From IMG/VR virus record IMGVR_UViG_3300030098_002648, positions 1 to 20,971 of that record: 20,971 bases of DNA. One strand, 5' to 3'. Numbering within the stretch: position 1 is the stretch's first letter; each line of letters opens with the position of its first letter. Positions 2,626 to 4,055 of this stretch are shown piece by piece. The position numbers and the translations under genes were made by a program. The notes below the pieces were generated by a model. It did no database searches. It had not been told where the DNA came from and saw nothing but the letters and a program-made list of their open reading frames with translations. This DNA comes from a virus.

Positions 2626-3391
2626 CTAACAGCTTCTTTGTAATCTTCTTAGAAAAACTTTTAACCTGCCCTTTTAGTTGCTTCTGAACGAACTTAGCTA
2701 TTGGCTGACCAATAACAGTTACACCAACTACAGATGTAATAGCAATAGCAGATGTATTAACAAGAACCGTAGGCTGTGGAGCGTAATTACCTGCAATCTC
2801 TATAGGATTTAATCCTTCCCAAACAGTTTCACATTTACCTGTAAGGACATCTCTCTTCCATCCTTTTATTCTTGCAAGGCCGCCTTTACCTAACGAACCA
2901 ATAGGAGTTTTAGCAAGTGTGTCTAAAGGTGGGCAAGGCAGAATATCTGCAATAAACTCTCCATCAATAGTTGGAACTTTAAAATCTTGTTGCCCTACAT
3001 TGGTATCTCCCTTCTCGTTATCTTTGCCATCCTTCTCTTCCACTTCCTTTCTTTTGTTCCTTTTTGATTTCTTTGGCAAAACAGGAGGAACAATTTTTGG
3101 AGTCTCTTGTTTTATTTCCTCTTGCTGCTCAGGTTCAACAACAGTAGCCCCGTCCCAATCAACAGCCATACTTTCAAGGGTTGGCATGTTTCCATCACAG
3201 ACATAAAAATTTCCACGCTCATCCTTAGTAACTAGGTTTTTATTTTTTAAATTCCTAGCCCTTACGCAGCCAGGCATTTGAATAACTGGGAAACCTATAT
3301 TTTCTGGAACTAAAGGCTCAGGTATAGAAATTATTGTTGTATCTATCGAAGCTTCAGGTATTTCTTGAATCGAAATATCTTCTATTTCCAT
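2552..3391 (-). CDS. Lysine-rich single-pass membrane protein, cyanophage-type (279 aa)
   Basis: The predicted order is: an acidic Pro/Ile-rich head (1-38); a CVRARN ... FYVCDGNMPTLESM segment (42-75) with two cysteines; a charged Glu/Lys/Pro linker (84-130); a second conserved-looking block with two cysteines (LPCPPLDT ... GSLGKGG ... TGKCETVWEG, 151-193); one transmembrane helix at about 207-229 (PTVLVNTSAIAITSVVGVTVI); and a strongly basic tail (230-279). I recognise the pattern CP...IG...GKE...C...YE plus one late helix from uncharacterised cyanophage proteins, again from memory only. It probably sits in the inner membrane with the basic tail cytoplasmic. The ATG is preceded by AGGGGG at 9-nt spacing, buried in a hairpin. 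Its 3' end overlaps the convergent gene by 74 bp. Confidence 0.7.
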   Translation of the reverse strand: MEIEDISIQEIPEASIDTTIISIPEPLVPENIGFPVIQMPGCVRARNLKNKNLVTKDERGNFYVCDGNMPTLESMAVDWDGATVVEPEQQEEIKQETPKIVPPVLPKKSKRNKRKEVEEKDGKDNEKGDTNVGQQDFKVPTIDGEFIADILPCPPLDTLAKTPIGSLGKGGLARIKGWKRDVLTGKCETVWEGLNPIEIAGNYAPQPTVLVNTSAIAITSVVGVTVIGQPIAKFVQKQLKGQVKSFSKKITKKLLAIRGKKPPVKSLADRRKEQRDSRK

Positions 3392-3427
3392 ACAACAAAA
3401 CCCCCTAGCATGTGTGAGTCTAGGAGG
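3392..3427 (-). promoter_or_regulatory. Hairpin overlapping the Shine-Dalgarno of the 279-aa gene
   Basis: On the minus strand the arm CCTCCTAG (3427-3420) can pair with CTAGGGGG (3408-3401) around an 11-nt loop, giving an 8-bp stem with one G-U pair. TTTTGTTGT (3400-3392) follows, then the ATG at 3391. The 3' arm contains AGGGGG, the only good Shine-Dalgarno candidate for that gene, at 9-nt spacing. The structure could end transcripts arriving from the tail genes, mask the ribosome site, or both. Confidence 0.5.
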
Positions 3428-3497
3428 CTTTGGTACTGACGCTCCAACAGAGCAGAGGCTAAATTAATAGCTTGATAATGGGTCTGGTGAAAATATA

Positions 3498-4055
3498 CTA
3501 GCAGTCGTTCCATTGATTAGCAAGATCGCTTGCAACATTTCCTACCTGCTTTCTAGCTTGACCAAAAAATATCCCCGCCAATACTGGTCCAACGATAGGA
3601 ACCCCTGCCAAAGCTGGTGTCACCTGAACCGAACCAGCATCAGCAATCATCTGTCCATTACTTCTACCCTGTGCCATCTTTTCTATACATTCAATCTGCT
3701 TTTTTGTAAGCTTTCCTCCTTCTCCTTGAGGGTAAACAGCAAACTGAGCTACAGATTGTTTGTGCATATATTTCTTCTTAACACCACCATTAAAAGTAGG
3801 TTGAGAATCATCTGTGATTGTGGTGATTAGCTTTGGATCGTGTTGCTTAGAATTAAACATCCACTCCTCTGCACCGTCAGGCTTGGTTTCACTCCTGATT
3901 TGAATTGAACTGTAAGGAGTGCTAGAAAGCTTGGCGATGTCTGGAATACCAGAATCTTTACGAGCCAAAAGGTTCAGGCTCATAAAGTTTGTGGCTATCA
4001 AACCACCGCCCAGAACAAGAGAAGTTAGGCCGTTAAACGATTTAAATTGAATCAT
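3498..4055 (-). CDS. Membrane-associated hypothetical protein (185 aa)
   Basis: The product has an N-terminal hydrophobic segment at about 9-30 (GLTSLVLGGGLIATNFMSLNLL), a polar central domain (31-142), and a Gly/Pro/Val-rich hydrophobic segment near the C-terminus at about 144-166 (SVQVTPALAGVPIVGPVLAGIFFG). It ends in NDC. The N-terminal segment lacks a clear cleavage site and is more likely an anchor than a signal peptide. No catalytic motif is visible and I do not recognise the family. The start overlaps the preceding stop by four bases (ATGA), making it the last of a three-gene coupled set. About 106 bp follow before the next start, including the hairpin described at 3392-3427. A role at the cell envelope is inferred from the membrane segments only. 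Confidence 0.65.
   Translation of the reverse strand: MIQFKSFNGLTSLVLGGGLIATNFMSLNLLARKDSGIPDIAKLSSTPYSSIQIRSETKPDGAEEWMFNSKQHDPKLITTITDDSQPTFNGGVKKKYMHKQSVAQFAVYPQGEGGKLTKKQIECIEKMAQGRSNGQMIADAGSVQVTPALAGVPIVGPVLAGIFFGQARKQVGNVASDLANQWNDC

Follow-up and report, generated by a model that had tools for sequence, protein, structure and literature searches.

A G+C-rich hairpin followed by a U-rich tail lies directly before a start codon on the minus strand of a viral DNA of 20,971 nucleotides (IMG/VR record IMGVR_UViG_3300030098_002648, positions 1 to 20,971; the whole stretch is called the window here). The position of this hairpin raises the question of what it does there, that is, whether it ends transcripts, hides the ribosome-binding site of the following gene, or both, and whether it belongs to that gene at all. 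Our analysis indicates that the hairpin is probably, in the main, an intrinsic (factor-independent) terminator at the 3' end of a short exchangeable insert, and that it would also hide the Shine-Dalgarno (SD) sequence of the downstream gene, phrog_570. The features of the locus are listed in Table 1.

Table 1. Features around the hairpin upstream of phrog_570 (window coordinates)
Feature	Coordinates	Strand	Description	Basis
Next upstream gene	4261-4052	-	phrog_568 match	
Upstream gene, 185 aa	3498..4055	-	phrog_605 (annotation: unknown function)	E 2.8e-13
43-codon open frame	3382..3513	-	ATG 3513-3511; runs through the insert and the hairpin	
106-nt insert	3392..3497	-	From phrog_605 stop to phrog_570 start; 5' end TATATT, 3' end hairpin	
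Hairpin	3396..3432	-	13-bp stem 3432-3420 / 3408-3396; 11-nt loop 3419-3409	Fold, pair counts
G+C core of hairpin	3427-3420 / 3408-3401	-	8 bp within the 13-bp stem	
SD-like AGGGGG	3401..3406	-	In the 3' arm, 9 nt before ATG	Anti-SD duplex -10.5 kcal/mol
U-rich tail TTTTGTTGT	3392..3400	-	Last base directly before ATG at 3391	
Downstream gene, 279 aa	2552..3391	-	phrog_570 (annotation: unknown function); start region under the hairpin	E 4.3e-32

Gene context and phage type

Relatives of phrog_570 were found in 360 phage records, each with less than 60% identity to the window protein, and 336 of these records are named Synechococcus phage or Cyanophage, judged by the first word of the name. Synechococcus phage S-RIM2 has the same gene order, with a 'plasmid stability' gene (the description of phrog_568) followed by a phrog_605 relative and a phrog_570 relative. 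Over 17-21% of its length, and with 25-28% identity, a 1420-aa gene of the window aligns with proteins of S-LBS1, S-CBS3 and S-CBS1 that are annotated as tail or hypothetical; we take these three phages to be Synechococcus siphoviruses. Together, the cyanophage relatives and the siphovirus matches suggest that the window is part of the genome of an uncultured cyanophage whose tail is siphovirus-like. The first-pass annotation of this DNA had proposed that the hairpin could stop tail transcripts. The genes immediately upstream are phrog_605 and phrog_568 instead, but large tail-like genes lie farther upstream on the same strand and tail transcripts could therefore reach the hairpin. At its other end, phrog_570 converges with a plus-strand ORF of 280 aa (1783-2625), the two overlapping by 74 bases (2552-2625), and overlaps of this kind are annotated in Sf-FS3 and S-RIM2.

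A stable hairpin of thirteen base pairs

The hairpin reads CAAAGCCTCCTAG-ACTCACACATG-CTAGGGGGTTTTG on the minus strand (3432-3396). Its core pairs CCTCCTAG (3427-3420) with CTAGGGGG (3408-3401) and contains one G-U pair (T3425-G3403). This is the 8-bp G+C-rich stem before the ATG at 3391 that had been noted earlier, correctly as far as the inner pairs go, but the full stem is longer, since the outer pairs CAAAG/TTTTG extend it to 13 bp. RNA folding, which had been suggested as a check, bears the structure out: the fold energy of a 51-nt piece is -19.9 kcal/mol, whereas its shuffles average -10.8 (sd 2.6; z -3.55), and none of 200 is as stable. Longer pieces that contain the hairpin give z -2.87 for 128 nt (0 of 200 shuffles as stable) and z -2.43 for 148 nt (2 of 200). 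Once the outer 5' arm is cut off, as in a 35-nt piece, significance is lost (z -0.18; 81 of 200 shuffles are at least as stable), and the fold signal thus depends on the full stem. The hairpin is thus confirmed as a real structure.

A simple terminator scan of the window, which takes only loops of 3-8 nt, does not list the hairpin. In a scan of the 21 kb for hairpins with U-tracts it scored -14.5, with most of the outer A/U pairs left out, and one site had a lower energy (-15.3, at about 9580 on the minus strand, within a 2273-aa ORF). A bidirectional terminator was considered and rejected, the plus-strand fold being weak in the window (z -0.80, 40 of 200 shuffles).

The hairpin ends an insert of scattered occurrence

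The insert sits cleanly between the stop codon of phrog_605 and the start codon of phrog_570, two genes that are adjacent in relatives. Related loci (L-numbers) were collected by protein search, one set being the best 80 of 120, and by search with insert motifs. A total of 170 loci with the end of phrog_605 collapsed to 89 usable distinct junctions and one that is too short (L184). A phrog_570 mate was recognised in 84 distinct junctions, which excludes L184 as well as L146, L159, L176, L181 and L205, where no such mate was recognised; L146 begins with the 106-nt insert type and is cut by the contig end. Among the 84 there are 53 junctions without insert, 21 with a hairpin-ended insert and 10 with longer DNA, proportions that are biased and do not represent population frequencies, because some loci were fetched with the insert sequence as query. 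One of the ten longer junctions (L138) also begins with a hairpin insert. The start codon follows directly at the stop codon in 50 of the 53 insert-free junctions. Since the insert is absent from these 53, the hairpin is not a conserved leader of phrog_570.

The occurrence of the hairpin hardly follows the ancestry of the gene behind it. A quick phrog_570 tree was built with 67 rows, of which 19 bear the hairpin. With hairpin-bearing rows labelled against all others, 15 label changes are required; shuffled labels require 16.9 on average, and 80 of 500 shuffles were as low. L001 has no insert, though its phrog_570 protein is 94% identical to that of the window, and the 41 nt of hairpin and tail are the same in the window and L050 save for two bases near the foot of the stem, with phrog_570 proteins about 51% identical. 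The interiors of the inserts are mosaics, and the same short modules are found reordered in L019, L034, L124 and L189. The boundaries of the insert and its scattered occurrence are direct results of the computation; judged from sequence comparison, the insert behaves as one moving, exchangeable unit. In cultured phages, blastn matched neither the window region nor the L051 insert, and no convincing second copy of the L156 insert was detected elsewhere in the 12 records searched. A host origin was also considered and rejected: CTAGGGGGTTTTGTTGT matched four scattered bacterial records, none labelled cyanobacterial.

The structure is kept while the sequence changes

Every one of the 21 distinct inserts shows a hairpin directly ahead of the ATG when its final 60 nt are folded (-19.6 to -28.6 kcal/mol, values that include other small hairpins). 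Eleven distinct stems of the same length, standing for 14 of the 21 inserts, have all of their 143 pair cells paired; this count omits the seven inserts that bear another stem. When the partners are slid by 1-3 columns, 43-67% of cells are paired. The eleven stems have nine further pair types, and two pairs (three cells) are changed on both sides. Covariation across related phages had been suggested as a second check, and some compensatory changes do occur, but they are few and some letter shuffles are as good: 30 of 500 reach the observed covariation score together with the percentage paired, and the count of pairs changed on both sides is equalled in 132 of 500. Covariation alone is therefore modest. 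A stronger sign of retention, in our comparison of the inserts, is the replacement of the stem at the same spot, as CCCTG...CAGGG in 5 of the 21 inserts and as a TAACAT-type stem in 2, each time with the U-rich tail kept. The CCCTG...CAGGG hairpin, which has an inner hairpin, was found at the 3' end of the inserts of L022, L082, L156, L165 and L209, and the L209 version is 3 nt shorter inside. The hairpin structure has been kept while its sequence was changed. The modest covariation relative to letter shuffles would suit a chance hairpin without function, but against the shuffle result for the window fold and the hairpin at the same spot in every distinct insert, with two kinds of replaced stem among them, chance is hardly credible.

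A probable terminator

The hairpin resembles an intrinsic terminator in its stable G+C-rich stem of 13 bp (-19.9 kcal/mol) and in the U-rich tract directly after it, where 7 of 9 bases are T and the run is broken by G residues. The tail TTTTGTTGT or a near variant (GCTGT, ATTGT, GTTTT, CTTTGTTGT) follows the stem in 21 of the 21 distinct inserts. In addition, five other hairpins with nearly the same GGGGGTTTTGTTGT tail are not followed at once by a start codon; L075 has two of them, ahead of a converging gene, and L078, L079 and L227 have one each. Their fold energies lie between -19.9 and -28.6 kcal/mol, with z from -3.8 to -6.5 and none of 200 shuffles as stable in any of the five, and the one in L079 lies, by eye, directly 3' of an apparent stop codon. 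Because these five were found by searching for the tail they show recurrence and not frequency; it is on their account that we read the hairpin mainly as an intrinsic terminator. Furthermore, the five CCCTG-stem inserts have a weak SD (-3.1 kcal/mol) with hairpin and U-rich tail present. Hairpin and tail thus outlast the SD, which favours the terminator role.

Termination in vivo would proceed as follows. Once RNA polymerase coming through phrog_568-605 has copied the G+C stem and the U-rich tail behind it, some of the transcripts would end there. In the RNA that is read through, the SD of phrog_570 would be locked in the 3' arm of the hairpin. With partial termination and a locked SD, the insert would lower phrog_570 output twice, in place of the direct stop/start joint of insert-free relatives. 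Several points speak against the terminator reading: the covariation is thin, and G residues interrupt the U tail, in which 7 of the 9 bases are U. Unless a large share of transcripts reads through, phrog_570 would be starved by a terminator placed 9 nt ahead of its start codon without an intervening promoter. Moreover, ribosomes translating the 43-codon frame would open the hairpin and abolish both termination and masking.

Predicted masking of the Shine-Dalgarno sequence

The AGGGGG of phrog_570 had been placed in the 3' arm by the first-pass annotation, and it lies there, at 3406-3401. Its mean unpaired probability in the window leader is 0.00, and opening the stretch from SD to ATG is computed to cost 21.8 kcal/mol. 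The same cost is 11.6-22.6 kcal/mol in the eight other inserts tested and 5.5-10.9 kcal/mol in five of the 53 insert-free junctions. By computation, then, the SD is masked in the hairpin, as in the sequestering hairpins of T4-like phages discussed below. The SD reaches -9.8 kcal/mol or stronger in 16 of the 21 hairpin junctions and never reaches -5 kcal/mol in the 53 insert-free ones, so that the insert also brings an SD with it. Masking may matter for the expression of phrog_570, and the model would have it act downward. Termination is the better constrained of the two roles, and it is plausible that both fit. The earlier proposal of a combined terminator and ribosome-binding-site mask is retained in its terminator-like hairpin, its SD in the 3' arm and a computed lock, but not in the gating by starts within the stem.

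An open frame through the insert

The 43-codon frame begins with an ATG just before the phrog_605 stop codon (3500-3498), and its own stop ends 10 nt into phrog_570. The frame is open to this stop at ATG+10 in 16 of the 21 distinct inserts, including some with swapped interiors or hairpins, and the open inserts have seven lengths (106, 127, 169, 172, 190, 193 and 199), each a multiple of three plus one. The start codon is ATG in 20 of the 21 inserts and GTG in L156. A conserved small protein was tried as an explanation and rejected, since neither the 43-aa frame nor a 71-aa version has a PHROG match and the changes seen in the 106-nt type ahead of the hairpin look neutral.

These data suggest a translated bridge as the leading rival to the terminator reading. 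Ribosomes starting near the phrog_605 stop would melt both the terminator and the SD lock, end 10 nt inside phrog_570 and restart there; the openness of the frame would matter and not the peptide. The number and the varied lengths of the open inserts argue for this reading, as do the other two frames, which hold 1-7 stops in the 15 open inserts read in phase, and dinucleotide shuffles, which keep the frame open in 13-75 of 500 (eight open architectures). Ahead of the hairpin, the 106-nt type shows 2 synonymous changes and 7 nonsynonymous ones, about what neutral evolution would give; inside the hairpin there are 7 synonymous changes, 12 nonsynonymous and 3 scored as stops against the consensus (MERLL frame). 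Coupling by RNA unfolding also has precedent (PMC12548453). However, five of the 21 inserts break the frame and keep the hairpin (L189, L175, L050, L048 and L142). The start codon lies within phrog_605 codons and is present in 76 of the 89 junctions, with or without insert, and no SD is evident before it by eye in the window. The architectures share modules and are therefore not independent trials, so we keep the translated bridge as a rival that is possible but unlikely. If the frame is translated, there would be selection for an open frame without selection on the peptide.

A wider version of this idea makes the insert an exchangeable control cassette, in which a ribosome on the bridging frame opens terminator and SD lock, phrog_570 is made only when phrog_605 is translated, hairpins and interiors are swapped with the frame mostly kept open, and the 3' arm of the terminator serves as a joint for adding genes such as that of L138. 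We regard this composite as rather doubtful.

Promoters and the remaining alternatives

The first-pass annotation had further suggested efficient translation solely for messages that begin within the stem, which recalls the late-gene lock of T4, where the SD is hidden in long messages and a promoter in or before the 5' arm gives short messages with a free SD. We scored the zone 60-32 nt before the ATG for TATAAT and for the T4-late-like TATAAATA. The best matches in the window are 3 of 6 and 4 of 8, respectively; no element of either type that would give messages lacking the 5' arm was found there, and the suggestion finds no support in the window. A lock of this kind would fit the strong computed masking, and the arrangement is known from T4-like phages (PMC2988022). 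In addition, L175, L050 and L048 carry a 5-of-6 TATAAT match in the zone. Nevertheless, the best TATAAT match in the other 20 inserts is anywhere from 3 to 5 of 6 at varying places, and in the window the stretch from SD to ATG still costs 11.5 kcal/mol to open without the 5' arm. A T4-style promoter at the stem was therefore rejected for the window for want of a suitable element, and such a lock is very improbable overall.

The TATATT at the 5' end of the insert matches TATAAT at 5 of 6 positions. Its distance from the ATG is 106 nt, and any message started there would still include the whole hairpin. It may instead be the promoter of a small RNA gene, whose transcript of about 95-200 nt would have the hairpin as its 3' end, with phrog_570 as a bystander. 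Nineteen of the 21 inserts start with TATATT (16) or TATGTT (3), the mosaic interiors hold further small hairpins such as GACTGA/TCGGTC, and the changes in the 106-nt type are without peptide constraint, all of which would be consistent with such a gene. Against it, no -35 element was established; TATGTT, in L003, L028 and L175, matches at only 4 of 6 and L050/L048 begin otherwise; there is no Rfam family match; and the types have very different interiors, which would be uncommon for an RNA with a single task. We judge a small RNA gene to be distinctly improbable. A search of Rfam 15 with window positions 3200-3700 gave four weak matches (E 1.1-4.6), far below the gathering score, and 12 related loci gave no gathering match; a known structured RNA family was accordingly rejected, as was a tRNA or tmRNA, none being present in the window.

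Relation to known systems

With the hairpin read mainly as a terminator, the insert can be compared with phage morons, which often bring along a promoter and a terminator when they are transferred (PMC2147016). It is like morons with terminators in its G+C hairpin and U-rich tail, in being DNA inserted between neighbours in relatives and in its scattered occurrence. As to a promoter and terminator of its own, the hairpin is terminator-like, but TATATT at the 5' end is no more than a weak hint of a promoter. In contrast to morons, the window insert has no recognisable gene, its 43-aa frame having neither PHROG match nor peptide constraint, and its terminator reaches right up to the start codon of the following gene, for which it provides the SD.

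In T4-like phages, PMC2988022 describes a hairpin with a late promoter for I-TevI, segB and mobE, and sequestration of the ribosome-binding site for soc and e. The window hairpin is like these T4/Aeh1 hairpins in being stable and hiding the SD in read-through messages. It differs in that no promoter-like element was found at its stem in the window, its U-rich tail suits termination and it lies in a swappable insert. Coupling by RNA unfolding is described for phage f1 VII-IX and MS2 coat-lysis (PMC12548453). Here too an upstream open frame overlaps a masked start site, as it does in the window, where the frame runs into the start of phrog_570, and in 16 of the 21 inserts in all. The upstream frame of the window, however, is no known gene, shows no amino-acid constraint and would be translated only putatively. 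Taken singly, terminators, SD locks and inserted cassettes all have precedents, and their combination in one exchangeable insert is a variant. Among the matches listed for open-licence papers, no title describes this insert.

Among the related ocean phages, a single control element is naturally present, absent or replaced at one joint, and these ready-made variants allow a test of what a terminator with SD lock does when it is inserted between directly joined genes.

Genes added at the same joint

The junction between phrog_605 and phrog_570 also holds larger additions. In L138 (the same locus as L031) the complete 106-nt insert is followed by a Phage_OMP gene (3327-3698; PF24653, E 1.5e-43) and then by the 3' half of the terminator before the ATG, a second copy that lacks the usual 5' arm. 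This related insert, unlike that of the window, does carry a gene. The arrangement suggests that the 3' arm of the terminator served as the joint for the addition of the L138 gene, and this one case points to terminators as places where phage genomes may gain genes. A gene in L078 resembles that of L138 by eye, and a terminator of the same kind follows it.

Other genes were detected by Pfam match at the same junction, namely an MT-A70 methyltransferase in L183 and 2OG-Fe(II) oxygenases in L172, L214, L060, L163, L055 and L039; the junction gene of L216 has no Pfam match. In L092/L093 and L099, contigs that came up in the pattern search, a very similar short terminator-like repeat (CCCTC...GAGGGTTTTGTTGTATGGAA) abuts an ATG in apparently unrelated sequence, which is probably a case of convergence.
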